44,461 bases of DNA from a virus, in the IMG/VR virus record IMGVR_UViG_3300013132_003067, positions 1 through 44,461 of that record; one strand, written 5' to 3'. Shown here piece after piece: positions 6,219 to 42,698 of this stretch; within the stretch, counting starts at the first letter, position 1, and each line of letters opens with the position of its first letter. Under the pieces are notes generated by a model. The model saw only the letters and a program-made list of their open reading frames with translations. It ran no database searches and was not told the DNA's origin. Made by a program: the position numbers and the translations under genes.

Positions 6219-7859
<1,641 letters not shown>

Positions 7860-14942: not shown

Positions 14943-14956
14943 ATTAATAAATATCA
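14941..14956 (-). promoter_or_regulatory. B-type (ATATTTATT) motif touching the start codon
   Basis: The coding strand reads TGATATTTATTAATATG, and the final ATG is the chosen start of the zinc protease gene. If the motif is a promoter, the message would be leaderless. Confidence 0.5.
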
Positions 14957-23240: not shown

Positions 23241-24446
23241 TTACTGTTTCGTTTTAATTAGATTTTTTTCATATGATTCGAGATGATTGATTGTAATAAT
23301 AAACATATCAAGTTCAAATTCACCCACTTCGCCGCTTTCTTTAATGATTAATGGCATTTGAGTGAGCAATTGAAAACTTTGTTGTGTTAATTTATTTGGA
23401 TCAAATTTGATAACGATATCATTTTCCCAATCTGGATTATTTCGATATGTCGTAAATACTCGTTTTGATAAATCATATGAAGTTTCTGATTGTTTTTTAT
23501 TTCTAAATTCATATACATGATTGAGCAAAGAATTAGTTGCTGGGTCTACTTCGCTTTCGATATATAAACGATCGCACCATGGTTCCAATGCTTCTAATAA
23601 TTGCATGGAACAATTGTTGATTACGTATGCAATATTATATTTAGGTACAACAATTGGCTCCATTAAGGCAGTATGATTTACACTAGACCCCCATTTGCGA
23701 ATAAATTCCATCGTTGAACGATCCATCGCAGATTTCCACGCAGCGTGGCGATCAGCATCTCCATCAAAACTTCCAGCACCCCGACCCGTCAAATGATATA
23801 CTAACGAATTCCATGGCTGTACAAATTTATAACCTGCTAACTGCATTCGATTAAAGATATCCGAATCCTCTCTGCAAGAATGGAGTATTGGATCATGTCC
23901 CCCCAATTCCATAAAATCCGTTTTATACATCATCCATGGTGCAAATATACCGTTAGTAATTTTAGTATCTGATAAATGTTCTTCAACGTATTGTTTAAAT
24001 TCATCTCGTTTAAATTCTTCTGGCCACATTCCGAGATCAAGAAGTATTTTTTCTCCCCCATTAGGATGAATTGGTGGTTCAATTCGAGTTGAACACACTA
24101 CAGTTTGTGGTTCTAGATGTTCAAATGCTTTTAAGTCTGCATCTTTGCCTAACATCATATCAGCATGAAATATCATAAACACATTCGTAGTGGAATTTTC
24201 AATACAATAATCATATGCTTTGCCAATACCATACAAGCTATTACCTAAATCCGGATTAACGAAATATATTATCTTATATTCATCTTTTACTTGCTCTAAC
24301 CATTCAACCGTTCCATCTTCATCCGAATCAACAAAAATGATAATATCATGATCTTTTCGATGTGCATTTTCGCGAATGGATGGTATACAAGTTTTTAGAT
24401 AACGTAAATTTGATTTACTAGGTATACAAAATGTTATTTTATCCAT
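23241..24446 (-). CDS. Family 2-type glycosyltransferase
   Basis: A 401-residue protein. The GT-A fold begins ITFCIPSKSNLRYLKTCIPS, and DIIIFVDSDEDG, MIFHADMML and the acceptor-side REDSDIFNRM follow. A long C-terminal extension from about 270 has no recognised domain. It transfers a sugar from a nucleotide-sugar to a glycan or protein, in the cytoplasm or at the membrane face; no membrane helix is seen. It is last in the sugar cassette, overlapping the methyltransferase upstream by 8 bases. Confidence 0.82.
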   Translation of the reverse strand: MDKITFCIPSKSNLRYLKTCIPSIRENAHRKDHDIIIFVDSDEDGTVEWLEQVKDEYKIIYFVNPDLGNSLYGIGKAYDYCIENSTTNVFMIFHADMMLGKDADLKAFEHLEPQTVVCSTRIEPPIHPNGGEKILLDLGMWPEEFKRDEFKQYVEEHLSDTKITNGIFAPWMMYKTDFMELGGHDPILHSCREDSDIFNRMQLAGYKFVQPWNSLVYHLTGRGAGSFDGDADRHAAWKSAMDRSTMEFIRKWGSSVNHTALMEPIVVPKYNIAYVINNCSMQLLEALEPWCDRLYIESEVDPATNSLLNHVYEFRNKKQSETSYDLSKRVFTTYRNNPDWENDIVIKFDPNKLTQQSFQLLTQMPLIIKESGEVGEFELDMFIITINHLESYEKNLIKTKQ

Positions 24447-25101
24447 GATTCTTTAATTCTAAAATAAGGTGAGTAACTCCTGGTCTCGTATCCCATGTTT
24501 TAACATCTGAAATATATAACGGTGTATATTCGCACATTTGTTTGTATGTTTCCAAAGATGCATTAAACGGATCTCCAGGTGAATATTTTTTAGATGGAAT
24601 TACTTCCGGAATATAATGACCATTGACTGCATATTGAAGTACTATGATACCAGTAGGTTTAAGTGTCTTTGCCCATTGGTTCAAACAATATATTGGATCA
24701 TATGTATGATCAAAAGAATTTGAATAAATTACATCACACGATCCAATCCACTCCTCCTTAATTTCGTGCATATCCCATTGAATTGTAATTTCAGGATAAC
24801 CAAATTTATCTCCAATTTCTGTACCAATAACGGTACAGTTAAGCATATCACCTAATATTTTATTTTCTCTTCCTGATCTTACACCATGGCACAATCCAAA
24901 TGTTGGAACAGAATTTCTTGTTAATACTTCATCTTTAATTTTTGAAAAAATACTGTCTGGATCATTACATCCCGGTCCAAATTTTCTTTCATTTAAAATT
25001 TTTTGATTGGTAACATATAAATCATATTCGGCAGTATAATCAGTTAATAAAAACGTTTTACCTTCTCCTAATTTTTTATAAATTTTTTTGTCTGTTTTCA
25101 T
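24439..25101 (-). CDS. SAM-dependent methyltransferase-like protein
   Basis: A 220-residue protein. The Rossmann-type pattern reads FGLCHGVRSGRENKIL (motif I variant), VIGTEIGD (motif II) and CDVIYSNSFDHTYDPIYCL with NQWAKTLKPTGIIVL (post-I and motif III). It probably methylates a sugar or glycan carrier, in line with its neighbours. The glycine motif is not the usual E-x-G-x-G, so the binding of SAM is less sure. It begins 9 bases after the dioxygenase stop. Confidence 0.7.
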   Translation of the reverse strand: MKTDKKIYKKLGEGKTFLLTDYTAEYDLYVTNQKILNERKFGPGCNDPDSIFSKIKDEVLTRNSVPTFGLCHGVRSGRENKILGDMLNCTVIGTEIGDKFGYPEITIQWDMHEIKEEWIGSCDVIYSNSFDHTYDPIYCLNQWAKTLKPTGIIVLQYAVNGHYIPEVIPSKKYSPGDPFNASLETYKQMCEYTPLYISDVKTWDTRPGVTHLILELKNHG

Positions 25102-25110
25102 ATTTTTACT

Positions 25111-26007
25111 TTATACTAATTTTAAAAAATCACAAAGTGGTTTATACTTTATATCTAACGTATCAAAATCTGATTTTCGCATTTGAAATGTTTGATTGAC
25201 ATCAAAAAATTCAGGATGGCATGCATAATCTAATGTTAACATGGTACGTTCATTATCAATTGGTTTAGTTCCTCTATGCCAACCATTTGTGTCAGCTATT
25301 AATAAATCTCCTTTTTTAGCAGTAAGATATTTTACTTTATCCGCGCCATATAGTTGGTGAATGTCATTCAATTCCCAATTATACTGCCTATTCCAATTGT
25401 ATCCATTTATTTCAAATTTTTTCGTATGACTACCTTCTACATAACAAAATGGTCCTCCGTTGATATCAACATCATTTAAATACACAAAAAATTTAAGGAA
25501 TCTAGGAGAATTTGGATCGGAATGATAGATTTGGGTTCCTCCTGCAGGTAAATTTGTAACAAATGATTTTCTTAAATTACATGTACTTAACATGGGCATA
25601 CAATCTAAGTATGCACCCGCAATATCAATAATAAAATCATTAAATACAAAAGGAAGTATTTCTGGAACATTTAAGAATGGTTGAAATACTTGAATATACA
25701 ATTGATTAGATCTTGCGTCATGTTGCGATATCTTGCTTTGATTTGCTGGATGCGATGCATCAGACAGTATTTCTTCTACTCGTTGATAAAGTGAATCAAT
25801 AATTGATGTATCTAAAAAATTCTCTATTTTAGCATAACCCTTTTCTTCTAATTCCATAGCAATATTAATTGCAGCATCAGATGACTGATAATCAGGGTAT
25901 TGTTGTTTTCTAGAAACATACGCTTGACTATATTTGTTTAAATTTTCATAACCATTAGTTACTGCTCTATGATCTGGCCACGTAACCCATTCTACTGTTT
26001 GATTCAT
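25111..26007 (-). CDS. Phytanoyl-CoA dioxygenase (PhyH)-family Fe/2OG oxygenase
   Basis: A 298-residue protein. The double-stranded beta-helix marks are QIYHSDPNSPRFLKFFVYLN (H-x-D iron ligands), GGPFCYVEGSHTKKF, then DTNGWHRGTKP (second His) and an Arg in RTMLTLDYA for 2-oxoglutarate. PhyH-type enzymes hydroxylate many small substrates including sugars and lipids. Here it may oxidise a cassette sugar, which is inference. The stop-start junction with the next gene is ATGA. Confidence 0.82.
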   Translation of the reverse strand: MNQTVEWVTWPDHRAVTNGYENLNKYSQAYVSRKQQYPDYQSSDAAINIAMELEEKGYAKIENFLDTSIIDSLYQRVEEILSDASHPANQSKISQHDARSNQLYIQVFQPFLNVPEILPFVFNDFIIDIAGAYLDCMPMLSTCNLRKSFVTNLPAGGTQIYHSDPNSPRFLKFFVYLNDVDINGGPFCYVEGSHTKKFEINGYNWNRQYNWELNDIHQLYGADKVKYLTAKKGDLLIADTNGWHRGTKPIDNERTMLTLDYACHPEFFDVNQTFQMRKSDFDTLDIKYKPLCDFLKLV

Positions 26008-26726
26008 AATTTAATCTTTTGTTTAATTTCTTTACTTAATGGAAAATGTTTCATGCTATATGGAGTAGAACAATTGAAATCAAATCCTTCTCCTAAATTA
26101 TGTAATTTAATTTTTGTTTGCAAACTAGTTTGATATAAAATGTTTGCAAAATATTCATGTGCGTCTACAAAACTTTCATACGAATGCAATCCATTATCTG
26201 CATCAATTAAATTGGTACGAAATGAATTATTAGGAGAATCATTTCTATTTTTTCCATGACCGTCAATTCCTACATAATAAAGTTCTGCAGGAAAAAATTG
26301 CATTACAAAATAACACACCCGGCCAGCTACTCCTTCTATTTTACCATACTCTGTATTGTAATAAACAATTTGTTCTTTATATGTTTCAACAAACCGTTTA
26401 AATGTTTCTGATTGATAGAATGGGTGCATTTTTGGTTCAAATGCAAACGTACATGTAGGATTATTTTGTATAAATTCGATTAAATTGGGATGTTCTAAAT
26501 CCACAACATCAGAAAGTGTAACGTGAGTTATATTTGATAGATTTCTAACTTCATCATTTAAATAAAAAAAACTAGTAGTTACTATTGCGTCTACATCTAA
26601 ATTTTTCCAATTTACTAAATTAACCGATGGGCCTGAACCCATTACTAATATTTTTTTATTTGTAAATTTTTGCGTAAACGTTTCTTGCGATATAGAAGTT
26701 GAATTTGATTCTAAAAATTTTATCAT
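26004..26726 (-). CDS. DUF115/MptE-Maf-like protein
   Basis: A 240-residue protein. KKILVMGSGPSVNLVNW is the glycine loop characteristic of the DUF115 family, and a later ELYYVGIDGHGKN matches its second conserved strand. This family includes archaeal MptE and the Maf flagellin glycosylation proteins that attach nonulosonic acids. In a cassette with nonulosonic acid enzymes a Maf-like transferase or an assembly role is attractive, but the protein lacks the long Maf extensions. A B-type motif lies directly upstream within the cytidylyltransferase 3' end. Confidence 0.62.
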   Translation of the reverse strand: MIKFLESNSTSISQETFTQKFTNKKILVMGSGPSVNLVNWKNLDVDAIVTTSFFYLNDEVRNLSNITHVTLSDVVDLEHPNLIEFIQNNPTCTFAFEPKMHPFYQSETFKRFVETYKEQIVYYNTEYGKIEGVAGRVCYFVMQFFPAELYYVGIDGHGKNRNDSPNNSFRTNLIDADNGLHSYESFVDAHEYFANILYQTSLQTKIKLHNLGEGFDFNCSTPYSMKHFPLSKEIKQKIKL

Positions 26727-27397
26727 AACCTTTTATATAAATATTCTCCTAATCGAAATTGCCATTCGTAATCTATGTCAAATGCTTCTAATTCGTTCAT
26801 GACAAATAACTCCGGAGAGGGTGGAGAAACCGTATCCATCCAATATCCGTCTTTAATAATATCTAATCGACTTGCATATAAACAATGTGCTGCTTCGTAT
26901 ATTGGTTCTACAAACTTCGTATTCATAATACAAGCGCCTTCCCAATCTGTAATGGCTTGTCCTCGTTTGTCCCAATAATATGTTTTCTTTTCAAATACTG
27001 CAAAAGCTCCATCTTTATCAGATTCAATAAATGACTGAATAAAATTATCAATCGTTTCAATTGTCAATATTGGATTACATGCACTTATTAAGACTACATA
27101 TTTAAATGGCAATTTATCGTGCCATTCGTAAATCAATTGCATATCAGTTTCTGCAAATGCCGATTCCTTTGATCGATTAAAAATATTGATTTCATATTTT
27201 TTACCTACTTCTTTTAATTCATCTTCGTATGCCGAAAAATAAATGTTTGATTTAGGAATAATAGTTGAATTAGATAATTTTTCAAATAAAATATCCGTTA
27301 ATGTAGTTTCAGCAAATGGTCGTAACATTTTACCTGGGACGCGTTGTGACCCCATTCTAGCTTGCACTAATATGCATATATCTTGTATCTGTTTCAT
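26723..27397 (-). CDS. Acylneuraminate cytidylyltransferase-like (CMP-sugar synthetase)
   Basis: About 224 residues from MKQIQDICILVQARMGSQRV. This start overlaps the upstream stop as ATGA. The nucleotide loop VQARMGSQRVPGKML and the strand KYVVLISACNPILTIETIDN fit the SpsF/NeuA type family that joins CTP to a nonulosonic or related acid, giving CMP-sugar and pyrophosphate. It would activate the product of the NeuB-like synthase of the same cassette. The exact sugar is not readable from sequence. Confidence 0.8.
   Translation of the reverse strand: MKQIQDICILVQARMGSQRVPGKMLRPFAETTLTDILFEKLSNSTIIPKSNIYFSAYEDELKEVGKKYEINIFNRSKESAFAETDMQLIYEWHDKLPFKYVVLISACNPILTIETIDNFIQSFIESDKDGAFAVFEKKTYYWDKRGQAITDWEGACIMNTKFVEPIYEAAHCLYASRLDIIKDGYWMDTVSPPSPELFVMNELEAFDIDYEWQFRLGEYLYKRL
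26731..26745 (-). promoter_or_regulatory. B-type (ATATTTATA) motif inside the cytidylyltransferase gene end
   Basis: The coding strand reads AATATTTATATAAAA, then GGTTATG. It also encodes EYLYKRL, the last residues of the cytidylyltransferase. It may start a second transcript within the sugar cassette. Confidence 0.5.
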
Positions 27398-28725
27398 ATG
27401 TGAAAATAGTTTAAACAATAATAAATTTCTCGTTCGTATACATCGGGTGACCTAAAATATGTAATAAAACTGCCAATTTCTGCATTATTCCAATGTGCAT
27501 ATCTAGGACCTAGTAATATTCGTTTTAATAACTTCTTTGGCAATGATAATGATAAGTATGGAACCGAATCATCTATATATTTTACAAAATCAATACCGGT
27601 ACCATTAAATGATATTTTTGCAAAAACGTATTCATTAATTTTAATATAAATCATAGTTTCATTATAAAATTTTAATTCTGTTCGTTTCCGGTCAAAACGA
27701 TTAAATGATTTTATGCACAAAGAAATTAATTCTAAATCTTCGACAACTGCATCATTTTCAAATGAATATTTTTTATGTCGCAATACGTTATTAACATATA
27801 AATCTCGATCAGCTGAGGTAAAATGCTTATATGGTGCAGATTGCTCTTTAGTTACTAAATCAAAAGATTCATATGAATTTAATAATATTCCTGTAGATGT
27901 ATTTTGTAATTCATTGTATTTGTCACAAGTATCTTTTATATCATTTATTGCTCGATATGGTTCTAAATTTACTAACTTTCCTGCTAAAATATATGTTCCT
28001 GCATGAAGCATAAAGTATGTAGGTTTACAATGAGTTATAAAATTTAATCCAGAATCAAAATAATATTGTTTTTGTTCTTGTGCTTTTTGTAATTTTTCGC
28101 TATTTGAATAATTAGAAAAACATTGTGGATATGCACTTGCTCCTGTATATCCGGTGATTAAGAAATCAATTTTATTATACGAATTTAAAACAGATTTGAT
28201 TGCAAATTTTGCTACAGGAAATGGGCAATCATTAACGTTTAAAACTGTATATTCATTATTATCAATAACACATAATGTATCTACGATTGTGGATGCAAAA
28301 TTAGTTTCCATCTTACCGCAACCAAATGTTTTAGCACAATGTATCGGATTACAATAACCTGCAGGTATGATATTGATATAAACATCGTTTTTTAAATGGG
28401 TACGTACATTTGATTCTAATTCAATAACAGAAAAACCTAGTTGTTCAATGTTTATTTTTAAAAATGGAGTAGAAAATTTATGTATTAATACCGGAATCTC
28501 TTTGTTGAGTTTTTCTAATGTTAGTTTACTTAAATGATCTGGATGTATGTGTGAAACATAAATATAATCAATATCATTTAATAAATCAAAATCAAAATTG
28601 GGCAACGGCGGATACATATACCAAGATCCGTAATATTCTCCATCAACTAACCACGGATCGGTCAAAATTTTAATACCATTTGCTTGAATAATTTCACAAG
28701 CGCCATTTAAATGGGTTATTTTCAT
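27394..28725 (-). CDS. MBL-fold hydrolase-like protein resembling UlaG/CMP-Neu5Ac hydroxylase core
   Basis: A 443-residue protein. It begins with MKITHLNGACEIIQANGIKI and LTDPWLVDGEYYGSW, followed by the metal motif YVSHIHPDHLS (HxHxDH). A conserved C-terminal GPRYAHWNNAEIGSFITYFR ends it. The start and the HxHxDH block recall the metallo-beta-lactamase portion of UlaG and of animal and bacterial CMP-N-acetylneuraminate hydroxylase; the Rieske iron-sulfur domain of the latter is absent. Placed beside the CMP-sugar synthetase, it may act on a CMP-nonulosonate or on another cassette sugar. It could instead be an unrelated lactonase. Confidence 0.72.
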   Translation of the reverse strand: MKITHLNGACEIIQANGIKILTDPWLVDGEYYGSWYMYPPLPNFDFDLLNDIDYIYVSHIHPDHLSKLTLEKLNKEIPVLIHKFSTPFLKINIEQLGFSVIELESNVRTHLKNDVYINIIPAGYCNPIHCAKTFGCGKMETNFASTIVDTLCVIDNNEYTVLNVNDCPFPVAKFAIKSVLNSYNKIDFLITGYTGASAYPQCFSNYSNSEKLQKAQEQKQYYFDSGLNFITHCKPTYFMLHAGTYILAGKLVNLEPYRAINDIKDTCDKYNELQNTSTGILLNSYESFDLVTKEQSAPYKHFTSADRDLYVNNVLRHKKYSFENDAVVEDLELISLCIKSFNRFDRKRTELKFYNETMIYIKINEYVFAKISFNGTGIDFVKYIDDSVPYLSLSLPKKLLKRILLGPRYAHWNNAEIGSFITYFRSPDVYEREIYYCLNYFHI

Positions 28726-28726
28726 T

Positions 28727-29701
28727 TTAACACTTTAATCCAGTTTCAATCAATTCAATCAATTCATCAGTATCTTCTGTTACCCATAATGCCGAATTAA
28801 ACTCTGGTCCTGTATATTTTTTGAAATCTTGATGACTTTTATTTGTGTATTGCGGACGTATTTGTAACAAATTAATTTCTGGTACTTGATATGTAAAAGG
28901 CAATTCGGTTACTGCTAACATATCTTCATGCAATTTTTCTCCGGGTCGAAGACCTATTAATTCTGTTTTAGGTTGTTTATTTAACATTTTACCTAATGCA
29001 GCTATACATGTTGGCAATGTATAAGAATTAATTTGTGGAACAAATACTTCTCCACCAACTGCATGTTCTAATGCACCCAATACTGTATTAACTGCATCAT
29101 CTAATGTAAATAAAAATCGAGTCATTGCTTCTGATGTAACTTTGAGTGTTTGATTGTTATTAATCATATCCACCCAAAGTGGAATAAACGATCCACGCGA
29201 TGCAATTACATTTCCATATCTAACAGATGCAAATACGGTTGATGTAGAATGATAATCATAATTTGTAAAAATACGCTCAGCAATGAATTTACTCGAACCA
29301 TATACGTTAACTGGTTGACAGGCTTTGTCAGTTGATACTAAAATACACTTTTCAATTCCATTCTCTAATGCAGCTCTTGCAACATTTTCCGATCCGTTGA
29401 TATTTGTTTTTACGCATTCATCAGGATAAAATTCCATATCATCGATACGCTTCAATGCAGCTGTATGTATAATATAATCCGGTTTATGTCTTTGTAGTGT
29501 AACGTTTAATTTATCAAAATCTCTAATGTCGCCAATTACTTTGATAATACTTGCATCTTGTCCAAATTCTAATGCTTGTTTGCCTTCATCTCTGCTATAA
29601 ACAATAATTGTACAATCAAATTGTTTTAATCGTTTAATAAGAGCTTTTCCTAATGAACCGGTACCGCCAGTAATAAATATTTTTTTTCCAGTAAAATTCA
29701 T
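28727..29701 (-). CDS. UDP-sugar 4,6-dehydratase, PseB/CapD-like
   Basis: A 324-residue extended short-chain dehydrogenase. KKIFITGGTGSLGKALIKRL is the NAD(P) loop; DYIIHTAALKRIDDMEFYP, CILVSTDKACQPVNVYGSSK and ASVRYGNVIASRGSFIPLW follow as in PseB and LegB, with LRPGEKLHEDML later. These soluble enzymes remove water from UDP-GlcNAc (PseB with C5 epimerisation), the first step to pseudaminic or legionaminic acids. It lacks the membrane part of PglF/CapD. It is followed in the operon by the MBL-fold and cytidylyltransferase genes. Confidence 0.88.
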   Translation of the reverse strand: MNFTGKKIFITGGTGSLGKALIKRLKQFDCTIIVYSRDEGKQALEFGQDASIIKVIGDIRDFDKLNVTLQRHKPDYIIHTAALKRIDDMEFYPDECVKTNINGSENVARAALENGIEKCILVSTDKACQPVNVYGSSKFIAERIFTNYDYHSTSTVFASVRYGNVIASRGSFIPLWVDMINNNQTLKVTSEAMTRFLFTLDDAVNTVLGALEHAVGGEVFVPQINSYTLPTCIAALGKMLNKQPKTELIGLRPGEKLHEDMLAVTELPFTYQVPEINLLQIRPQYTNKSHQDFKKYTGPEFNSALWVTEDTDELIELIETGLKC

Positions 29702-30318
29702 TATAATGTAACTTTAATAAGTTGTTCAAATCCATGAGATGCATTCAGTGCTTGATTTATTTGAACTTCTGCACACGTACTATACATATCATTAAAGTTA
29801 TGTACATAACGCATAGTTTTATTTGGTAATTTATAATATGTATCACCATGGTGCTCTGCATGAAATATAAATTGTTTTGCTATTTTCTTAAGATTGTTTG
29901 CTATATTTAAAATGTTATCTGTATCTATTTTATCCGAAAAACATGGTATATGAATAAGTACGCCTGCAGTAAAAATAATGTCAAATTGATTTTCGTGAAA
30001 ATATTTATCTAATTCATATATACTCCCATGAATTAAATTTAATTTAGGTAATTTATTTTTTGCATATTCTAATGCATTAGAATTAATATCAAATCCTGTT
30101 AATTCAATTGTAGAATCTAATTCATGAATTTGTCTAAGATTGTATCTGCCAAAACATCCAATTTCTAAAACACTTTTTGGTTTTAATTGTACAATTTGTT
30201 CGGCTAGTTTTTTTCTTCGATCATTTTTAAAATTTTCATATCCCGACCCCGAATATTCTTTTGTATTTTGCCAATGATTTTGTGTTTCTATAAACACTTT
30301 TTTTAAATTTGTTTTCAT
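29701..30318 (-). CDS. Class I SAM-dependent methyltransferase
   Basis: A 205-residue protein. SVLEIGCFGRYNLRQIHEL (E-x-G-C-x-G) is motif I, TGFDINSNALEYAKNKLP motif II, and FDIIFTAGVLIHIPCFSDK motif III. It should methylate a small molecule or sugar of the cassette; the target is not identifiable. It lies between the NeuB-like synthase and the PseB-like dehydratase with one-base and two-base junctions. Thus it is likely to be translated with them. Confidence 0.82.
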   Translation of the reverse strand: MKTNLKKVFIETQNHWQNTKEYSGSGYENFKNDRRKKLAEQIVQLKPKSVLEIGCFGRYNLRQIHELDSTIELTGFDINSNALEYAKNKLPKLNLIHGSIYELDKYFHENQFDIIFTAGVLIHIPCFSDKIDTDNILNIANNLKKIAKQFIFHAEHHGDTYYKLPNKTMRYVHNFNDMYSTCAEVQINQALNASHGFEQLIKVTL

Positions 30319-30320
30319 TT

Positions 30321-31151: not shown

Positions 31152-31441
31152 ATTTCTTCTATTCTTTTTGTTTTATCGCAAATCAATAAATCATATGCAG
31201 GTTTTTGACCCGTAATTAATTTATGATATTTACATCCCCATGTATCTAATTGCATTTTAGTTACATCGAACCAATCTATACCAGTAACTGAACCTCTTGC
31301 GGTCCAATACGTAATGTCATGTCCTTCTTCATATAATATATTGATTTTTTCAATGTTTTCCAAGATGGGGTCTGCTAAATCATAACGACGTTCTCCAGTA
31401 TACATACAAATTGTTTCGTCGATATCTACGTATATATTCAT
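31148..31441 (-). CDS. HAD-like phosphatase domain protein
   Basis: A 97-residue protein. Its start YVDIDETICMYTGERRYDLA holds the DxDET nucleophile motif. GHDITYWTARGS gives the second, and YDLLICDKTKR the last conserved Lys and Asp. Short HADs like this in capsule loci are thought to remove phosphate from sugar phosphates or similar. It may act on NeuB-type products such as a 9-phosphate, which is inference. It overlaps the NeuB-like gene as ATGA. Confidence 0.8.
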   Translation of the reverse strand: MNIYVDIDETICMYTGERRYDLADPILENIEKINILYEEGHDITYWTARGSVTGIDWFDVTKMQLDTWGCKYHKLITGQKPAYDLLICDKTKRIEEI

Positions 31442-31442
31442 G

Positions 31443-32123
31443 TTATCTTAATTTTCCGCCTGCTGCATTAAATTCGCAGACAATATTAATACTATTATTT
31501 TTCAATACATGTTTCAAATCAATTAATTTAGCTGCTTCACACTTATGAAATTCAATCCCGATGTTTTTAATAACGTTGATTCGAGTTGTTGGGAATGTTC
31601 TAAATATTTCATATTCAGCTCCTTCAACATCAATTTTCATTAGTTTGCAACTTGTTATATTATTTTGATCCAAAATATCTTCAAGTGAAATCGTTTGTAC
31701 TTGCGAAACTGGATATTGATTAAAAAACTCAGACTTATAATATATTGAAGAACCTCCAGAATTTGTTGGTGATGTCGGAATCTGTATAATACTATTTGAA
31801 TCAGACCAAACCGCTAAATTAAATGCTTGAATGTTAGTGCAATTGTTATCTTTTATATTTTTAACAAAATTTTGATAATTTATAGGAGATGCTTCAAATG
31901 AATAAATTTTAGTAAATGGAAACTTTTTAGATAATAAAATAGAAATAATTCCTAAATTGGCTCCTAAATCTATTATGCAATCTCCTGGTTGAAATCCTAT
32001 ATCAAACATAGGTTTATATGTAGACAATTCATCTTGTATTAATTTTATAGTATGTTCCGTTTCCTGACACGTTAACGTTAATGTCTGATCTAAAAATTTA
32101 TATTGATTAGTTTTTAAGTTCAT
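31443..32123 (-). CDS. FkbM-family methyltransferase
   Basis: A 226-residue protein. The FkbM pattern is present: DCIIDLGANLGIISILLSKK (motif I), YSFEASPINYQNFVKN, AVWSDSN, and late LMKIDVEGAEYEIFR with GIEFHK. These enzymes put a methyl group on hydroxyls of sugars or polyketides. It is one of two FkbM proteins in this cassette, which suggests that the final glycan carries several O-methyl groups. Confidence 0.88.
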   Translation of the reverse strand: MNLKTNQYKFLDQTLTLTCQETEHTIKLIQDELSTYKPMFDIGFQPGDCIIDLGANLGIISILLSKKFPFTKIYSFEASPINYQNFVKNIKDNNCTNIQAFNLAVWSDSNSIIQIPTSPTNSGGSSIYYKSEFFNQYPVSQVQTISLEDILDQNNITSCKLMKIDVEGAEYEIFRTFPTTRINVIKNIGIEFHKCEAAKLIDLKHVLKNNSINIVCEFNAAGGKLR

Positions 32124-33321
32124 TGTTTAAAAAATTTATTATTCTATTAGTACTATTTCCATCAAATTGATATTCATCAAAATATTTAACTAGATTGTCG
32201 TAGTCTTTTTTTGGTTGATTTAAAAAATTACAGTCCCAATCAAAGTCAATTGTATTTGCATGAACGCATTGCATAAATTCTGTATTTGTTTGTTTGAATG
32301 TATTTATACGACGCAAATCAATCATATTTTTAAATTCATCAACGGAATTTAAATTCCAAACTCCCATCCAAAATTTGGCAGAATCTTCAACGCCATTGTT
32401 TGTTTCTTCAAGATAGGTGTTGATATCATTCATTTTTTCGTCCGCAAAACATATACTATCTAAATTAACTAGTTTTTTATTATGTGCAAATGCAAAGTTA
32501 AATACGCTACTAGCAGCTGCTATATGAGTATCGCAGATTGCAGCCATATCGTATATATCATTTTCATCATATATTACAGTAACGCCATCAACACAAAAAG
32601 GATTGAAATCTTTTTGAAATCGATCATTATATGGTTCACCTGGATAACATTTATAATAAATTTGATGCGTATCTTTTGTTTTATTTGCTAAAACTTGTAA
32701 TGCTTCAAATGCGGTACGTCTTGTTGTATTAATTACACCCCAAAATAATATCTGTTGTTTAGTTGGGTCAATATTATATTTTTCTTTTACTCGTTGCAGA
32801 TCTGTTTCTTTAAAGTTTCTAGTATTGCCTACAACAATTGTTTTTATATCATATGATTCATCTAAACAATCTATTCTACGTTGCTTTGCCCATTGACTAT
32901 GTTCGAAAAAATAATCTACTTGATTTTGTGGATATTGTGTTCTAGATAACATTTCTAATCGATTTTCAATATTGTTAGTTAAATGACTACTTACTTCAAC
33001 ACAACATATTTTACAATCCCATTTAGATTTAAATTCATGTATAATCGATTGTTCCGGATTCCATCGTTCTCGAGCTAAAATTAAAACATCTGGCACAAAT
33101 GGCAATTGTAGTTGCAATGTTTCTGATATGACAGGTGTTTCATCTTGTATCTGGCCATCATATTTAAACCGCTGTTTATGATCTGGGTGATTTGGATAAA
33201 GTAATTGCGTACTTTGTGTATAGTAAAATAAAAATGCATGATTGGTATTTTTTAATTCTTCTGCAATAGGTTGCAAAACCGAATAATATTTTCTATCTCC
33301 TGCATAAATTACGATATTCAT
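32107..33321 (-). CDS. Putative GT-B glycosyl/glycerophosphotransferase-like protein
   Basis: A 404-residue protein. It starts MNIVIYAGDRKYYSVLQPIA, has FLFYYTQS and, in the second half, IYYKCYPGEPYNDRFQKDF, VIYDENDIYDMAAICDTHIA and ASSVFNFAF. This two-domain arrangement, with a late K-x-x-P and a D-x-x-x-x-x-D-x-x-I-x-x-x-SS donor-side pattern, resembles CDP-glycerol glycerophosphotransferase or sialyl-type GT-B enzymes. The exact family is uncertain. It is a candidate to use the CMP-sugar made by the cassette. Confidence 0.6.
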   Translation of the reverse strand: MNIVIYAGDRKYYSVLQPIAEELKNTNHAFLFYYTQSTQLLYPNHPDHKQRFKYDGQIQDETPVISETLQLQLPFVPDVLILARERWNPEQSIIHEFKSKWDCKICCVEVSSHLTNNIENRLEMLSRTQYPQNQVDYFFEHSQWAKQRRIDCLDESYDIKTIVVGNTRNFKETDLQRVKEKYNIDPTKQQILFWGVINTTRRTAFEALQVLANKTKDTHQIYYKCYPGEPYNDRFQKDFNPFCVDGVTVIYDENDIYDMAAICDTHIAAASSVFNFAFAHNKKLVNLDSICFADEKMNDINTYLEETNNGVEDSAKFWMGVWNLNSVDEFKNMIDLRRINTFKQTNTEFMQCVHANTIDFDWDCNFLNQPKKDYDNLVKYFDEYQFDGNSTNRIINFLNNELKN

Positions 33322-34070
33322 AATAAATCTTTTACTAAGTTAGAAAATGTAGTATTTGTAGTTATTATATCAGATTCTGTTAAATTATCTAAATATTTTT
33401 TACCACTACTCTCCCATAGATGATGAGAATATGCATTTGGAAAATCATGATTTTGTTCAAACATTGCTTCAATGTGGTCTTGATGATACAATGGCCAAAA
33501 AAATGCTTCATGATCTAATATTGTAATTTCGTTTGAAAGTTGTTTAGATAACCATAATGGATAATGTACTGAATGCGTGCACCACGTATCACTTCCAGGT
33601 GGGCCACCATGAAAATGATCTTTGAATCCTGCCAACCAATGTTGTGCAAATACTGAATTTGGCTCTGATAAAATCACAGCAGGGCACAATCCTTCCGATC
33701 CATTGGGTGCTTGTTGTCCTAAAACAAATTTATTATGTAGCAATGATAAAAAATCTTTAACAAATATAGTATCCGTATCAACATATATTCCGCCATGTTC
33801 TAAAAGAATTTGTAAACGCAATACATCACTTTTATGTGCTAATTGTGTTATTGGTATTCCAAAAATTTCAGACGGGGCTTCGATGTGAATACATTCAACC
33901 ATTGGTTTAGTTTTTTCCCACCATTCGCCAGTTGGCTCGGCATCAACCCACATACATATCTTATTAACTTTGCTTCGAACATATGCAGATTTTACTGATA
34001 AATAATGATGCAACTTCCATGGCCGACCATTATTACTTAAATGTACATAATGCAAATTATTTGGAATCAT
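33318..34070 (-). CDS. GT32-like glycosyltransferase (DxD)
   Basis: A 250-residue protein. IPNNLHYVHLSNNGRP at the start and HKSDVLRLQILLEHGGIYVD with TDT give the DxD sugar-binding site of the Gly_transf_sug group (GT32, Och1-like). PAVILSEPNSVFAQHWL follows. It transfers a hexose from a nucleotide sugar, with a divalent metal, to a growing glycan. It overlaps its neighbours on both sides by a few bases. Confidence 0.85.
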   Translation of the reverse strand: MIPNNLHYVHLSNNGRPWKLHHYLSVKSAYVRSKVNKICMWVDAEPTGEWWEKTKPMVECIHIEAPSEIFGIPITQLAHKSDVLRLQILLEHGGIYVDTDTIFVKDFLSLLHNKFVLGQQAPNGSEGLCPAVILSEPNSVFAQHWLAGFKDHFHGGPPGSDTWCTHSVHYPLWLSKQLSNEITILDHEAFFWPLYHQDHIEAMFEQNHDFPNAYSHHLWESSGKKYLDNLTESDIITTNTTFSNLVKDLL

Positions 34071-34890
34071 ATATACAAACTAAGTTATGGCCAGAGCCTG
34101 GTTTTATATCATTAACTGATTTTATTTCTTTACCTAAATTATCTAGATCTAAATGATTAATTTCTTCATCATATGCTTTATATCCTAATTCATGAATTGT
34201 ATCTAATAAATCAGTAATTTCATTGAGATGTAAGCCATCATAAATTTCAGTAATTAAAACTGGTTTATGTGTCGTTATTGTATGCTTCAATGTTTTTAAA
34301 ATATCCTTATCATGTCCTTCAGCGTCTATTTTAATCAAAGAAACATGTCCAAGTTCAATTTCATTTTCATTGATAAATTTTTCAAAATTAACTGCCATTA
34401 CGTCAATTGGCACAGTATGACCAGTAACTCCAATGCCATGCCCAGTACGTGTAGCAAATCCTCCATTGCAAAATCCATGATCTGAATAATGAAATGTTAA
34501 TGCTCCTTCTTCATCCGAAATAGCACAATTGAATGGTTGAATATTTTTGTTCAAAGTCGAATTCAATTCTAATACTTCATATGTAGCAGGATTTGGCTCA
34601 AATGCAATTACTTTGTTAGCAAACAATGAATATGCAACGGACATGTTACCGGTATGTGCTCCAATATCAATTACGGTACTGCCGGGTGTAATAATTTTAG
34701 ATAAATTACTTAAAATTGTTTCATTAAACAATGCACGAACTTCCCAATCGCCTTGCCATGGATGCAACCAACGATGATATGATATTGTTTTGTCTGCTAC
34801 TTGCAAATTAATAATTTTAGTAGCATAATGATTGTTACTTTGTTTTAATACATCAAGTACTTGATTTCTATATTCGGTTATCTGCGTCAT
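34057..34890 (-). CDS. FkbM-family methyltransferase
   Basis: A 277-residue protein. GSTVIDIGAHTGNMSVAYSL is motif I, VIAFEPNPATYEVLELNSTL motif II, and VSLIKIDAEGHDKDILKTLK the typical FkbM K-x-D-x-E-G motif, then PVLITEIYDG. It is probably a sugar O-methyltransferase. It differs clearly from the other FkbM protein in the cassette, so the two are unlikely to be recent copies. Confidence 0.88.
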   Translation of the reverse strand: MTQITEYRNQVLDVLKQSNNHYATKIINLQVADKTISYHRWLHPWQGDWEVRALFNETILSNLSKIITPGSTVIDIGAHTGNMSVAYSLFANKVIAFEPNPATYEVLELNSTLNKNIQPFNCAISDEEGALTFHYSDHGFCNGGFATRTGHGIGVTGHTVPIDVMAVNFEKFINENEIELGHVSLIKIDAEGHDKDILKTLKHTITTHKPVLITEIYDGLHLNEITDLLDTIHELGYKAYDEEINHLDLDNLGKEIKSVNDIKPGSGHNLVCIYDSK

Positions 34891-35059
34891 GATTATTCTT
34901 TATAAAGTATTTACGAATAGCGCACCCCAATTCTTTATCATTAGGATATTTTTTGATTAGTTGTTTTATATCACATACTATAGAATTAGCATCCTTGTTT
35001 TGCATTGCTTCAACTTCTAAATCCGTATATATTTCTTGTTTTGTTTTACAATGTTTCAT
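34868..35059 (-). CDS. Small hypothetical protein in the sugar cassette
   Basis: About 63 residues from MKHCKTKQEIYTDLEVEAMQ. The start lies just inside the end of the glycosyltransferase upstream (13-base overlap); an ATG three codons earlier is possible. A much longer frame running through that gene is not credible. It is helical and charged, ending FIKNNHDADNRI. No family is recognised. It also overlaps the FkbM gene by 23 bases. Confidence 0.5.
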   Translation of the reverse strand: MKHCKTKQEIYTDLEVEAMQNKDANSIVCDIKQLIKKYPNDKELGCAIRKYFIKNNHDADNRI

Positions 35060-35675
35060 AATATGCATTTTGTTTGATTTGCCGATCCATTGTTTTTGGA
35101 TGATATAATGAATAATCTTCTTGCATTGGTAAAGTTGAATATTCTTTAAAACCTTGTAATACTTCATGCACTTTATTTTTCCAAGTAATAGAATCATCAT
35201 TGCGATAAATCCTCCATTGATAATCTGGCCAATTGATCCATCCATGTTCATTCACATTCCAACCCCATTGTTGCATATGATCTTGATCCATACCTTCCAC
35301 AGTATTTACTCTAGGTACCAAAACAACATCTACTGTAGAATTTGTTTCTAGTATATTTGGTAGTTGTGTTATCAAAGTTTCATTTGGTATTTCATCTGCA
35401 TCAATCTGAAAAATAAAATCGCCAAAACAATATGATGATAATTTATTTTTCCAATCGGCAAAATGTCCTTGAAATTTATCTTGCCATATGGTTATATGAT
35501 CGTCATAATGTCGTTCATAATGTCGCAGCGTTGATATCATTTCATCATCTGTATTTGTTATATCTAACAACACAACAATTTCATCAGTTTTCTGTTTATG
35601 TTTAAGTAAAAAATCAAGCAAACGTTGTATTTCTTGCAATTCGTTACATACCGTTACTGCATAACTTATTTTCAT
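35046..35675 (-). CDS. Glycosyltransferase family 2-type
   Basis: A 209-residue protein. It begins ISYAVTVCNELQEIQRLLDF, with DEIVVLLDITNTD, FGDFIFQIDADEIPNETLI (the D-x-D site) and ITWKNKVHEVLQGF. This fits the short GT2 proteins in phages and lipopolysaccharide loci. It should add a sugar, possibly the first to a carrier. It is coupled with the GT4-type protein upstream by an ATGA overlap. Confidence 0.82.
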   Translation of the reverse strand: MKISYAVTVCNELQEIQRLLDFLLKHKQKTDEIVVLLDITNTDDEMISTLRHYERHYDDHITIWQDKFQGHFADWKNKLSSYCFGDFIFQIDADEIPNETLITQLPNILETNSTVDVVLVPRVNTVEGMDQDHMQQWGWNVNEHGWINWPDYQWRIYRNDDSITWKNKVHEVLQGFKEYSTLPMQEDYSLYHPKTMDRQIKQNAYYETL

Positions 35676-36925
35676 GCTTCAATTTTCTTTAATTTAGGTA
35701 ACGTTAATTTAGGCAATGACAATTCTACTTGTTTTGGTACTGATGCTAATGCTTCATCAACGATACCTAATACTTTTTCATATACGGGTGCTACTGCAGT
35801 TTTAGTAAATGTCGAATTAACAAAATAACGTTGGCGTTTTGCTAATTCTTGCCATTTTTTATAATTCTTTTGCACTTCTTTCATCATTTTACTAGCATAT
35901 GTATAATCTGGAGTAAACCACTTTGCATCTTTAATTAAAAATTCGTTACGAGCTGATTCATGTATTTCAGTCAAACCGCCTGGCAATGCACAAATGAAAT
36001 CTTTTTTAAGAAAATCAGCTTGACCAGAATAATGAGGTGCAATTACGGGTTTACCTGTAGTTGAAAATTCAAGTAATGGACGACCAAACCCTTCTGCTTT
36101 TGTAAATGATATCATAGCTTTTACTTTAGGATGATTGTAAAGCAAATTCATTTCTTCATCTGCTAAATCTCCGTGCAATAAGTATACGTTTGGTAACTTA
36201 GCTCCCGGAAATAATTCTTGAAGCTGAATTATTTTGTTTTCAATATCCATGCGGTCCATAACTGAATATGTTGCTCCGCTCGACTTTAATACAAGTGCAG
36301 GTGCATCTTTTTGATTTTTGTATGTATTAAAAAAACAATGAATAAGCCCGCTAATATTTTTACGATCTTCGCCAGCTTGACCTTGCAACCAATGACCAAC
36401 TGATAAAAATGCAAATGTTTCAGGAATTGAATCTAGAATCGATAACTGGCCAGTTGTTTTATTAGTATATACATTTTCATCAAAATATTCTGGAATTACT
36501 TCTATTTTAGATGTAATAGGTTTGTTATTCTTTTGGGATGTATTAATAAATACTTGTTTTGTAAATTCGCTTGGTACAATGACCAATTGCATTGCATTAA
36601 GTTTGTCAATCCATTCCGCAGGACAAATATCTCCTTCGGTGCCAGCAGTAACTCCAATATTATACTTTCCAACTGCTTGAAATTCATTAGGCACTGTAAC
36701 TTGTACCCAAACGTCTGGTTGTGATGTAAGTGGTAGCGGAACAATGCGTTGATTCCAATCTTGTGGTATTGGATATGTAAATGGAGTATGTCCCCATGGC
36801 AAAGACACGAGTTTAACGTCCCATTCTTTACCACGTTGTTCTATAATGTTTGCAATAATTTCGCGGGCATGATGACCGTATCCTGATTGTGTTGCTACTG
36901 GTGATGCTATTATAACTGTTCGCAT
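35672..36925 (-). CDS. Glycosyltransferase family 4-like (GT-B)
   Basis: A 417-residue protein. The start TVIIASPVATQSGYGHHARE is the acceptor-side loop. VIVPSEFTKQVF, KIEVIPEYFDENVY, FLSVGHWLQ and the donor-side region KVKAMISFTKAEGFGRPLLE (E-x7-E) are typical of GT4. The last residues, VELSLPKLTLPKLKKIEA, contain a repeated LPKL and are shared with the start of the neighbouring GT4 protein. It uses an NDP-sugar; no membrane segment is seen. It overlaps both neighbours. Confidence 0.85.
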   Translation of the reverse strand: MRTVIIASPVATQSGYGHHAREIIANIIEQRGKEWDVKLVSLPWGHTPFTYPIPQDWNQRIVPLPLTSQPDVWVQVTVPNEFQAVGKYNIGVTAGTEGDICPAEWIDKLNAMQLVIVPSEFTKQVFINTSQKNNKPITSKIEVIPEYFDENVYTNKTTGQLSILDSIPETFAFLSVGHWLQGQAGEDRKNISGLIHCFFNTYKNQKDAPALVLKSSGATYSVMDRMDIENKIIQLQELFPGAKLPNVYLLHGDLADEEMNLLYNHPKVKAMISFTKAEGFGRPLLEFSTTGKPVIAPHYSGQADFLKKDFICALPGGLTEIHESARNEFLIKDAKWFTPDYTYASKMMKEVQKNYKKWQELAKRQRYFVNSTFTKTAVAPVYEKVLGIVDEALASVPKQVELSLPKLTLPKLKKIEA

Positions 36926-38409
36926 ACTATTCCTGTTTTTTCGTATTTTTTTGGTGTAACTTTAGTTAGTGTATATCTTGCACGGATTTCTAATTTAGAT
37001 TCAAATAAATAATCAATCATTTCAATCATTTTGTTGCCCATTTGTTCGGCCGTTAGTCCATTTTTTAATGCCCATTCTCTACCAGATTGACCCATTTGAT
37101 TTCGAAGTGTTTCTGGCGTGTCATACCAATATCGAATTGCATCAGCAACATCTTCATATTTTGCTCGATCATCAAAAATATATGGCGTTTGTGGCGAACC
37201 TTGAAGTGATCTATTACTTGGAAATACTGGTTTAACCCAAACGCCGTGTAATTTATATTTACCTGTATGATTAGTTGCAAATTCTCCATTAAATCTAATC
37301 CACTCGTCATTTTCGTCCACAAATCCACATTGGTCTTGTAATCCACCAGTTACATTGTTAATAATCGGAGTGCCTGATAATATTGCTTCAGTTGAACTAA
37401 GTCCCCATCCTTCGTTGCTACCAATGTTAACAACAACGTCTGCAACATTATACATAGCATTCAATTCAGCATGAGATAATTTTTGTTCCGAAAATATTAT
37501 TTTGCAATCTGGTGCCAATGTTTTAAAAATGGCTCGGAGATCTGTTCCGTTTTCATCTACAATCTGTGTATGCATTAGCAATGCTACTCGTTGCTTTTGC
37601 TCTGCAGGCAATCCGTCAACAAATGTTTTAAACGCTAAAATTAAATCGCCTGGTTGTTTTCGTCTAATATTTCGATTGTTCCAAAACACTACAAAGTCTA
37701 CATCATGTTTCGTTTTAATGTTTTCATAAACATGTTTGTATGTTGCATCATCTACAGGCAATGGTTTGAATGTATTATGATTTAATCCGTGAGGAACAAA
37801 CCCAGTAACAATTTGATTCCATTTTACATCCGTTGGTACTGAATCTTGAGCATCATAATTTACAACATCAAATCCATTTTGTGCGAGTACTTCTCGATGA
37901 ATATTGTCTGATTGTTTGCTAATACCCATAATTAAATCGCAACTTGCATAAAATGGTGCGTTCCACATTGGATAAGGTAAATCATCCCAAATTGAATAAT
38001 AAATAATAGGTATGTTGAATGTTGTTTTAATTTCGTGCTCAATAGCATATAACCAAGTCCAATATCGCGGATCGGTAAAATGAAATATTGCATCTGGACG
38101 TTCATTGTTTATAAGTGCCATTAGAATATTTCGGTCTCCATAACCATTCCATGGAATAATTTTAACTGATGCATCTTCTATGCCCGTTTCTTGTGCAACT
38201 TGTACTGACAAATCAAATGCTTGACCTGCTTCTGGGTGTTTTAATGCGCCGCCTAATTGTACCCAATCATAATGTCGTACGGTATTGAATATAATCTCTC
38301 GGCTGATGGTACCAATACCCGAAGGCAATCGGAAATCATCTGCTAATAATAAAATTTTCTTTTTCTTGGGCTTGTTGGGGTCGATTTTTTTTAGTTTTGG
38401 TAACTGCAT
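36910..38409 (-). CDS. Glycosyltransferase family 4-like (GT-B), first gene of the sugar cassette
   Basis: A 499-residue protein. It opens with MQLPKLKKIDPNKPKKKKIL, then ADDFRLPSGIGTISREIIFN. GT-B features follow: IMGISKQSDNIHREVLAQNG, VVFWNNRNIRRKQPGDLIL, and NVADVVVNIGSNEGWGLSST with EAILSGTPII (E-x7-E donor site). It is the first gene of the cassette on the strand, with a B-type motif and AAAGGA ribosome site ahead. The LPKLKKI tag at the start matches the end of the next protein. Confidence 0.86.
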   Translation of the reverse strand: MQLPKLKKIDPNKPKKKKILLLADDFRLPSGIGTISREIIFNTVRHYDWVQLGGALKHPEAGQAFDLSVQVAQETGIEDASVKIIPWNGYGDRNILMALINNERPDAIFHFTDPRYWTWLYAIEHEIKTTFNIPIIYYSIWDDLPYPMWNAPFYASCDLIMGISKQSDNIHREVLAQNGFDVVNYDAQDSVPTDVKWNQIVTGFVPHGLNHNTFKPLPVDDATYKHVYENIKTKHDVDFVVFWNNRNIRRKQPGDLILAFKTFVDGLPAEQKQRVALLMHTQIVDENGTDLRAIFKTLAPDCKIIFSEQKLSHAELNAMYNVADVVVNIGSNEGWGLSSTEAILSGTPIINNVTGGLQDQCGFVDENDEWIRFNGEFATNHTGKYKLHGVWVKPVFPSNRSLQGSPQTPYIFDDRAKYEDVADAIRYWYDTPETLRNQMGQSGREWALKNGLTAEQMGNKMIEMIDYLFESKLEIRARYTLTKVTPKKYEKTGIVCEQL

Positions 38410-40086: not shown

Positions 40087-40401
40087 ATGATACGGTTAAA
40101 ACATTTGCTTACAGAACAAACTGATGCTACGAAATTTTGTAAAGCAGATATCTTATCTAAACCACAATTTTCTAAAGAAAAATGGAGTGCAATTGGTATA
40201 TGGCCGCCTCCCGGAGGCCGTAATATTGGTAAAACAAATACTCCGTCGGAACATAATATCGGAAATGCTATTGATTGGCACGGAGCAAAGGGTATCGGCG
40301 ATCCGGTTATGCAAGAATTAGCAGATTATTTAGTAGCAAATCATTCTACATATTCTGCCAAAAATGTTATTTACAATAAACGAATGTGGACTTTCTCCTA
40401 A
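40087..40401 (+). CDS. Peptidase M15-like virion protein, N-terminal part (frame ends early)
   Basis: A 104-residue frame starting MIRLKHLLTEQTDATKF, with the LxE leader. It continues with TPSEHNIGNAIDWHGAKGIG (the His and Asp of a D,D-peptidase-like zinc site) and NVIYNKRMW, and ends at a TAA. The domain is incomplete here: its missing end (KGWHAYTGESPHLEHVHVDF) is encoded by the next frame. Similar phage and bacterial proteins have the two parts in one chain, so a frameshift is present: real, programmed, or a sequence error. It is the only plus-strand gene and has a B-type motif. Confidence 0.75.
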   Translation: MIRLKHLLTEQTDATKFCKADILSKPQFSKEKWSAIGIWPPPGGRNIGKTNTPSEHNIGNAIDWHGAKGIGDPVMQELADYLVANHSTYSAKNVIYNKRMWTFS

Positions 40402-42647: not shown

Positions 42648-42656
42648 AATATCCTT

Positions 42657-42671
42657 TATTATAAATATATC
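42657..42671 (-). promoter_or_regulatory. B-type (ATATTTATA) motif before the homing nuclease
   Basis: The coding strand reads GATATATTTATAATA, followed by AAAGGATATT and the ATG. It lies in the 50-base gap after the gp44-like gene. Confidence 0.52.
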
Positions 42672-42698
42672 TGTAATAGATAAAGACATTGAATATTT

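Follow-up and report, generated by a model that had tools for sequence, protein, structure and literature searches.

An unbroken run of 18 open reading frames (ORFs) was identified on the minus strand of the 44,461-base IMG/VR virus record IMGVR_UViG_3300013132_003067 (the whole record is called the window here), extending from position 38409 down to position 23241. This cassette is probably a phage surface-glycan operon with a nonulosonate-type branch, by which a CMP-activated 3-deoxy-ulosonic acid would be made, tailored and attached to a variable glycan. Gene content, family and fold assignments, co-occurrence and selection were established directly. The initial annotation had described the segment as a single run of 17 overlapping genes; the coordinates and the run hold, the number of ORFs is 18, and the inventory had missed a metallo-beta-lactamase (MBL)-fold protein (27394-28725) and a 404-amino acid (aa) protein (32107-33321). 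The decorated acidic glycan that it proposed fits the cassette genes. Distances between neighbouring ORFs range from -206 to +9 nucleotides (nt) and every overlap except one is at most 25 nt long; the -206 spacing is that of a 127-aa ORF (34868-35251), whose true start codon may lie further downstream.

Candidate genes for synthesis, activation and transfer

The synthase gene (30321-31151, on the minus strand like all cassette genes) encodes a 276-aa protein of the NeuB family (PF03102, 2.3e-78; 263.5 bits against a cut-off of 22.1), in which no SAF domain was found with Pfam up to an E-value of 0.1. Its closest solved relative was 6ncs (290 aa, 9.2e-45). The cytidylyltransferase (26723-27418, 231 aa from a TTG start) matched CTP_transf_3 (PF02348, 5.5e-14; 52.9 bits against a cut-off of 22.6), and a methionine codon at 27397 suits the overlap of this gene better than the annotated TTG. 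In this profile check, the proteins introduced in the initial annotation as a NeuB-family synthase and a CMP-sugar synthetase stayed inside the NeuB and NeuA families.

A third protein (26004-26726, 240 aa), formerly labelled DUF115/Maf-like, is better described as a GT42-like member of the sialyltransferase families. On its own it gave no Pfam match. When a profile was made from 36 of the 65 non-redundant phage members of its family, nine GT42 sialyltransferase sequences ranked first, from 3.7e-08 (CST-II) to 7.3e-05, the next unrelated sequence being found at 0.005, and a Foldseek search with the predicted model (predicted local distance difference test (pLDDT) score 94) returned GT42 structures at all ranks from 1 to 15. 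By both measures the protein resembles CST-I and CST-II of Campylobacter, although it is only 13-17% identical to them over those rows. NeuB relatives were present in 212 IMG/VR stretches, 80 of which were used for the locus counts; labels such as L006 denote related stretches, and gene labels such as GT42-like, PseB or DegT denote BLAST clusters of script-called ORFs (79 of the 98 proteins in the GT42-like cluster match the window protein directly). Among these 80 NeuB loci, 73 carried the GT42-like gene, 69 the cytidylyltransferase and 65 both (74, 69 and 66 with slightly looser labels); the corresponding numbers after deduplication to 67 loci were 61, 59 and 55. The ORF directly after NeuB was the GT42-like one in 41 of 78 loci. 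Because of this genomic linkage to NeuB and the cytidylyltransferase, a GT42-type transferase is favoured over an MptE-like protein, and the chain leading from synthase through CMP activation to transfer would thereby be closed better than the initial annotation knew.

The cassette also encodes a PseB/CapE-like UDP-sugar 4,6-dehydratase (28727-29701, 324 aa; PF02719, 1.8e-78), the closest solved relative of which was the UDP-GlcNAc C6 dehydratase 2gn4 (1.7e-60). A longer NeuB ORF (300-399 aa) was present in 25 of the 80 related viral loci, one of which may be the main copy read from an earlier start codon, and a frequent gene order in those loci was PseB, DegT aminotransferase, long NeuB, formyl- or acetyltransferase and cytidylyltransferase. 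The long paralogue of L006 bears a SAF domain (PF08666, 5.3e-06). DegT was found in 16 of the 80 loci, PseB being present in all 16. No second or long NeuB was seen around the cassette of this phage or around those of its relatives L003 and L005. In 50 of the 80 loci, which reach up to 10 kb on either side and are sometimes shorter, the short NeuB occurs without PseB, DegT, long NeuB and the MBL gene; the short NeuB therefore looks like a separate branch, apparently independent of them. In L006, L056, L065 and others, two NeuB paralogues are found, one short and SAF-less and one long (the single long one tested bears SAF), and some loci have two cytidylyltransferases; two paralogues in one cassette suggest two different ulosonic acids per phage. 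In L014 (12785-14084), formyltransferase and PIG-L deacetylase genes adjoin the long NeuB, and an N-formyl nonulosonate is a possible product.

A 97-aa HAD-type phosphatase gene (31148-31441) overlaps the start of NeuB by 4 nt. The window protein gave no Pfam match; its family profile matched the 'Capsule biosynthesis protein' 9iqw at 8e-20, with 'phosphoheptose isomerase' as the best PHROG family label (4e-22), and residues D6, D8, T10, K80, D84 and D89 were invariant in the 15 members aligned, out of 31 non-redundant ones. The earlier HAD assignment stands by profile and motif, not by Pfam. Because of the overlap with NeuB and the match to 9iqw, a phosphorylated intermediate in ulosonic acid synthesis is plausible. 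The nearest cellular NeuB relatives among the 100 matches listed were four plasmid-borne proteins (47-53% identity); a HAD gene lies directly downstream of the relative in Methylomagnum and Azospirillum and not in Hymenobacter (two of the three annotated records, the fourth being unannotated). The HAD protein as a partner of the short NeuB only was rejected, since a HAD gene adjoins the long NeuB in L089 and lies directly upstream of the short NeuB in just 18 of 78 loci.

Several results weigh against this interpretation of the cassette. The synthase fell below the equivalog cut-offs for Neu5Ac (N-acetylneuraminic acid) synthase (TIGR03569, 270.1 against 399.65) and pseudaminate synthase (TIGR03586, 199.9 against 340.25), and so did the dehydratase for PseB (268.5 bits against 407.75) and the cytidylyltransferase for PseF (1.8e-07; 31 bits against 205.7). 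No DegT (PseC-type) aminotransferase was found in the window or in the two records that overlap it (G001 and G005), all of which are fragments, whereas 16 of the 36 searched records (the window and the records of 35 of 91 IMG/VR loci) have one; a PseH- or PseG-like gene was not recognised in the cassette. As a consequence the sugar cannot be named: the attempt to name it from profile scores failed, and the link to pseudaminic, legionaminic or sialic acids by name, drawn initially from three enzymes that all lie under the NeuB_NnaB, PseI, PseB and PseF cut-offs, is not supported. Concerning the transferase, VIA-align gave the archaeal MptE-type pterin kinase 8sd5 a Z of 12.7, level with the 12.6 of CST-I, and Pfam assigned MptE-like to 18 of 36 family members and CST-I to 3 of 36. 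GT42 enzymes have a catalytic histidine and a CMP-donor site; the profile alignment ends near that region without a clear match, and the catalytic histidine of CST-II could not be placed. The Pfam matches among the cassette proteins pointed to no flippase, polymerase or ligase, and display on the envelope would rely on the host. Lastly, the first two glycosyltransferases of the cassette are only 43-46% identical in L006, and the whole cassette is therefore not moving as a single block.

From the gene content we infer the following reactions, substrates, order of steps and destination of the glycan. The SAF-less NeuB would condense phosphoenolpyruvate with an aldose to give a 3-deoxy-ulosonic acid; the aldose is possibly a sugar phosphate, and the product would then be dephosphorylated by the small HAD protein. 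The cytidylyltransferase would activate the ulosonic acid to a CMP-sugar, from which the GT42-like protein would pass it onto an oligosaccharide built by five glycosyltransferases. Four methyltransferases, a PhyH oxygenase and the MBL-fold protein, the latter as an O2-using hydroxylase, would tailor the sugar or the chain, and the PseB-like dehydratase would supply a 6-deoxy-4-keto UDP-sugar for the ulosonic acid or for another residue. Host export machinery would display the glycan on the envelope, where it could hide or alter receptors and in this way act against competing phages.

The MBL-fold protein

The 443-aa MBL-fold protein (27394-28725), a putative oxygenase, matched Lactamase_B_3 at 2e-06. 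A family profile aligned from nine relatives (of 20 redundant ORFs) matched the FrsH diiron monooxygenase (8a90, 1.5e-07), the SaxA hydrolase (1.1e-05) and CmlA (0.003), and the predicted model (pLDDT 82) matched MBL structures in general, CmlA with a Z of 20.6 and plain hydrolases with 20-21. FrsH and CmlA are the nearest solved relatives by sequence; however, the match is confined to the first ~113 residues, plain hydrolases are their equals by fold, and the fold matches hardly reach past residue ~298. An alignment of 46 relatives was made, in which 10 of the 44 cellular loci were omitted as partial or short (L121, L129, L131, L132 and L134-L139). The HxHxDH metal site (H59, H61, D63 and H64) was present in all 46. 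Cys125, Cys130 and Cys136 were present in 37, of which 36 also carried Cys167 and one had Ala at this position; the nine others had none of the first three cysteines, one of them retaining C167. Six of these nine are from SAR11, and the others are L130, L157, which carries a fused Rieske domain, and L128, the reading frame of which stops after 87 codons. The four-cysteine set may hold an iron-sulphur (Fe-S) cluster; in the model the pLDDT is under 50 at 124-147, a region with three of the four cysteines. In the SAR11 single-cell genomes L122-L127, a 416-aa subgroup was found without the four-cysteine set and without a nearby Rieske motif.

No Rieske domain was found by Pfam in the MBL protein, which begins at the MBL domain. 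A Rieske-type motif was absent across the window and from 17 of the 19 MBL-bearing phage loci scanned, and was present in the other two only in a 40-codon frame. A Nocardia relative (P0008), whose record names a Rieske domain, has none of the four cysteines and carries a C-terminal C-P-H...C-N-L-H motif. The motif C-x-H...C-x-x-H occurred in 6 of the 44 cellular MBL loci; in L099 it lies in a 220-codon frame on the opposite strand, ~5.5 kb off, which looks like a true Rieske protein, and in the other five loci in frames of 43-112 codons. A partner Rieske protein for the MBL enzyme may be encoded elsewhere. The phage protein shares with CMP-N-acetylneuraminate hydroxylase (CMAH) the MBL fold with HxHxDH and differs from it in having a four-cysteine set instead of a Rieske domain; because this domain is missing, it was not classed as CMAH. 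A CMAH sequence scored 90.9 bits against the MBL family profile (3.5e-25 at Z=100,000) and 0 of 20 shuffles were reported, which we treat as a lead only and not as a test. Because the best profile match is FrsH, a Rieske-fused relative exists and the cysteine set is almost all-or-none, an oxygenase is preferred, and these features suggest a putative O2-using enzyme working like CMAH with a built-in cluster. A plain hydrolase was less favoured, though hydrolase folds score like CmlA and SaxA came second in the profile search. If the oxygenase reading is true, the protein would be a prokaryotic, Rieske-free model for CMAH-type hydroxylation; in its accessible text, a 2016 review stated that a structure of CMAH had yet to be reported and called the mechanism interesting (PMC4819959).

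Relatives of the MBL protein were found in 11 IMG/VR loci by direct scan, to which L009 and L074 add two, in 0 of 50,697 phage records, in 44 loci from 84,980 species genomes and in 13 plasmid records, six of these over most of the length. A NeuB homologue was present in the locus DNA examined for 12 of the 44 cellular loci, and all six genomes with MBL relatives that were searched have a NeuB match (E 1e-20 or better, 31-40% identity); two archaeal plasmid relatives examined have polysaccharide genes nearby and no annotated NeuB. The MBL gene tracked PseB, which was present in 9 of 9 MBL-bearing loci against 27 of 80 (p 2e-5; 5 of 5 against 19 of 67 after deduplication, p 0.0012), and its substrate may therefore be a UDP-sugar and not a CMP-sugar. 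Its assignment as an enzyme of this exact NeuB was judged weak, since it co-occurs with PseB instead. L089 and L090 carry the MBL gene without the short NeuB and with no PseB match.

Mobility, destination and alternative explanations

Among 50,697 phage records, a NeuB relative was found in 3, at 27-46% identity. Gene order was compared in 29 of 91 loci. Between L006 and the window, NeuB, PseB, HAD, cytidylyltransferase and GT42-like proteins are 72-87% identical, whereas the phage exonuclease is 44% identical; the nonulosonate branch therefore appears to move between phage lineages. In L003 and L005, the genes flanking the cassette are 78-88% identical and its position between exonuclease and holin/endolysin genes is kept, while FkbM, sugar-transferase and methyltransferase genes found in the window are absent or have been exchanged for others; L003 is also without the MBL gene. 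Such swapping would be usual for surface glycans under selection. Ratios of nonsynonymous to synonymous substitution rates (dN/dS) were 0.056-0.283 against L005 (11 of the 18 cassette genes tested) and 0.045-0.286 against L003 (nine genes; L003 has no counterpart of the MBL gene or of the 220-aa methyltransferase), and the tested cassette genes are under purifying selection.

The cyanophage P-SSM2 carries a 15-gene polysaccharide cluster (PMC7824862), and pelagimyophages carry lipopolysaccharide genes (PMC7029224); for both, a change of the host surface against competing phages is a published proposal and not an experimental result. As far as the accessible text of these papers goes, the likeness lies in T4-like aquatic phages with a variable cluster of many glycosyltransferases and sugar-modifying enzymes, and the difference in that no NeuB, CMP-sugar synthetase, sialyltransferase-like or MBL enzyme is named there. 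The cassette falls within the P-SSM2-type definition given in the accessible part of PMC7824862: clustered glycosyltransferases and sugar-production or modification enzymes in an aquatic phage. Because the published proposals for related phages invoke altered host surface sugars against rival phages, the host envelope appears the most likely destination of the glycan. Phage-encoded O-acetyltransferases act on nonulosonic acids of Acinetobacter capsules, and here too a phage gene alters a nonulosonate-bearing surface glycan of the host; by the accessible text (PMC6586298), only a tailoring enzyme is involved, whereas the window has genes for synthesis, activation and transfer. No report of a phage NeuB or nonulosonate cassette was present among the matches listed, subscription papers being mostly outside, and the match to 'viral sialyltransferase' concerned a herpesvirus. 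Phage surface-polysaccharide cassettes are known; what seems new is a branch of the sialic type that includes a sialyltransferase-like enzyme and an unusual oxygenase-like one.

Since none of the cassette genes could be recognised as serving export, either host export or a cytosolic protein target, for example a virion part, has to be assumed. That the glycan is attached in the cytosol to virion proteins, as a decoration of the capsid or of an Ig-like protein, and not displayed on the host envelope is possible: in a crude hydropathy test, 17 of the 18 products were without a membrane-like segment (the 127-aa protein was borderline), a Hoc-like/SprB Ig protein is encoded on the contig, and cytosolic flagellin transferases of the Maf type belong to the GT42/DUF115 fold group. 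However, neither an acceptor protein nor a transferase directed at proteins was identified, and the glycosyltransferase set differs among close relatives as it does in O-antigen loci. We find it doubtful that an amino-nonulosonate of the pseudaminic or legionaminic type is made with the host supplying the missing steps. The PseB-like dehydratase, the NeuB-family synthase and the cytidylyltransferase recall the bacterial PseB-C-H-G-I-F pathways, related loci have PseB, DegT, a second SAF-bearing NeuB and formyl- or acetyltransferases, and a 205-aa methyltransferase of the cassette (29701-30318; Methyltransf_31, 1.1e-09) is similar to the Pse methylase TIGR03587 (Pse_Me-ase, 5.6e-15), below its cut-off. 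The window differs from those pathways in that the aminotransferase was not found there or in the two overlapping records, an acetyltransferase and a hydrolase were not recognised, the synthase is without SAF and the scores are sub-cut-off; moreover, a second NeuB was not seen in this phage, L003 or L005, and 50 of 80 loci have the short NeuB with no PseB, DegT, long NeuB or MBL gene in the locus DNA examined.

A cassette serving DNA hypermodification or a small-molecule product is very unlikely. A thymidylate synthase is encoded on the contig, and secondary-metabolite clusters with related enzyme classes have been proposed in cyanophages, according to the accessible text of Iyer et al. 2021 (PMC7824862); but the GT42-like transferase and CMP activation indicate the capping of a glycan, and Pfam revealed no gene for base modification among the 18. 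It is hardly credible that bacterial DNA was misassembled into the viral record or contaminates it. The G+C content, at 0.29-0.31 over 24-36 kb, is below that of the left half of the window (0.335-0.42 over 1-24 kb; 40-44 kb is also low, at 0.315-0.324), and an 812-aa protein of the type IX secretion system (T9SS) type lies at the window edge. Yet phage genes flank the cassette on both sides, its position between exonuclease and holin/endolysin is kept in L003 and L005, two further records match 18 of the 18 proteins at 100%, and Gp23 is encoded in 10 of 36 NeuB records.

A surface-glycan operon with a nonulosonate-type branch remains the preferred explanation. A more far-reaching version of it is, in our judgement, unlikely: a widespread, mobile 'viral sialylation' module in aquatic T4-like phages, in which SAF-less NeuB, CMP-synthetase and GT42-type transferase would cap a glycan with a new CMP-activated ulosonic acid, and in which, in some phages, a four-cysteine Fe-S MBL diiron hydroxylase, replacing the Rieske domain of CMAH, would make an N-glycolyl-like (Neu5Gc (N-glycolylneuraminic acid)-type) or otherwise hydroxylated form. 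If true, glycans would receive a sialic-acid-type cap under the direction of bacterial viruses, through a chain of synthase, activation and transfer that passes from one phage lineage to another, and phages would have a concrete, testable route to alter host receptors or coat virions.

The phage, its host and the remaining genes

Judged from its genes, the contig is a fragment of a large aquatic T4-like phage, in agreement with the initial attribution to a phage. Profile searches identified in the window a clamp loader (1.8e-85), a dUTPase, an exonuclease, an amidase-like protein and a weak holin match. Window proteins also belong to the PHROG 'porphyrin' and 'cobalamin biosynthesis' families, with Pfam CobT_C below cut-off, which suggests CobS/CobT-like genes by our reading. 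The overlapping records G001 and G005, which match all 18 cassette proteins at 100%, prolong the window leftward and rightward, judged by coordinates, and the right-extending one encodes a T4-type DNA polymerase (2.5e-186), a UvsX-like recombinase (9.2e-68), a DnaB-like helicase (1.8e-76) and ribonucleotide reductase. The major capsid protein Gp23 was found in 10 of the 36 NeuB-bearing viral records searched, the window and its two overlapping records, all fragments, not being among them.

The protein encoded at 260-2698 of the window carries SprB repeats and a CHU_C T9SS signal by Pfam and is labelled Hoc-like by PHROG; its neighbour in the left extension (L150, 8238-10556) is a large protein with an Ig_7 'CHU_C associated' domain. 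Given where T9SS is known, these domains indicate that the host is probably a member of the Bacteroidota, and the phage apparently supplies proteins to the type IX secretion system of such a host. Of 36 records, only two have CHU_C above the cut-off, namely the window and the twin that extends it to the left (two further weak matches were below cut-off), and this evidence on the host therefore says nothing on other phages.

For the roughly five glycosyltransferases and the four methyltransferases of the initial annotation, Pfam gave five and four, one of each kind below cut-off. The conserved start of the cassette is a 499-aa GT4-type glycosyltransferase (36910-38409; Glycos_transf_1, 3.5e-07; phrog_2170, 2.2e-18; 63 of the 80 NeuB loci), followed by a 417-aa GT-B glycosyltransferase (35672-36925; Glycos_transf_1, 3.6e-05, 23.8 bits against a cut-off of 26.4; 64 of 80 loci) and a 209-aa GT2 glycosyltransferase (35046-35675; Glycos_transf_2, 9.5e-09; 30 of 80 loci). 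The 127-aa protein has no significant Pfam or PHROG match and occurs in 7 of 80 loci, two of which are twins of this phage. Next come an FkbM-type methyltransferase of 277 aa (34057-34890; Methyltransf_21, 3.1e-19), a DXD-type sugar transferase of 250 aa (33318-34070; Gly_transf_sug, 2.9e-11), the 404-aa protein and a second FkbM-type methyltransferase, of 226 aa (31443-32123; Methyltransf_21, 1.1e-14). The 404-aa protein belongs to no known family, with 0 Pfam matches, and is GT-B-like by eye only; a scan of all 13 members of its family gave weak single Pfam matches (best PF06265, 6.1e-4, and PF04464, 0.012), and the PDB profile search an E of 0.98. A role for it as NeuC or PseG was rejected, as Pfam, family-member and PDB profile searches gave no support. 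The PhyH-type 2-oxoglutarate (2OG)-Fe(II) oxygenase (25111-26007, 298 aa; PF05721, 4.8e-10) corresponds to the 2OG oxygenase already listed, and the cassette ends with a weakly matching 220-aa methyltransferase (24439-25101; Methyltransf_31, 4.3e-04, below cut-off) and a 401-aa GT2 glycosyltransferase (23241-24446; Glycos_transf_2, 3.7e-10).

Outside the cassette, a 220-aa protein (18211-18873) falls in the PHROG 'ferredoxin' family (1.8e-54) without a Pfam match and could be an electron donor for oxygenases. Two overlapping ORFs of 104 and 176 aa lie on the plus strand at 40087-40894, amid a minus-strand region, the 176-aa one having no Pfam or PHROG match. The thymidylate synthase is longer than its profile match, possibly because of an insert, and several HNH/homing or NUMOD3 endonucleases are present; together, the synthase and endonuclease coordinates are 4726-5823, 7873-8433, 14954-15508 and 41961-42689. 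A phage GroEL is encoded at 6219-7829 (phrog_5725, 5.9e-178), and a sigma-70-type factor (region 2, 2.4e-14) at 102-839 of the left extension L150.

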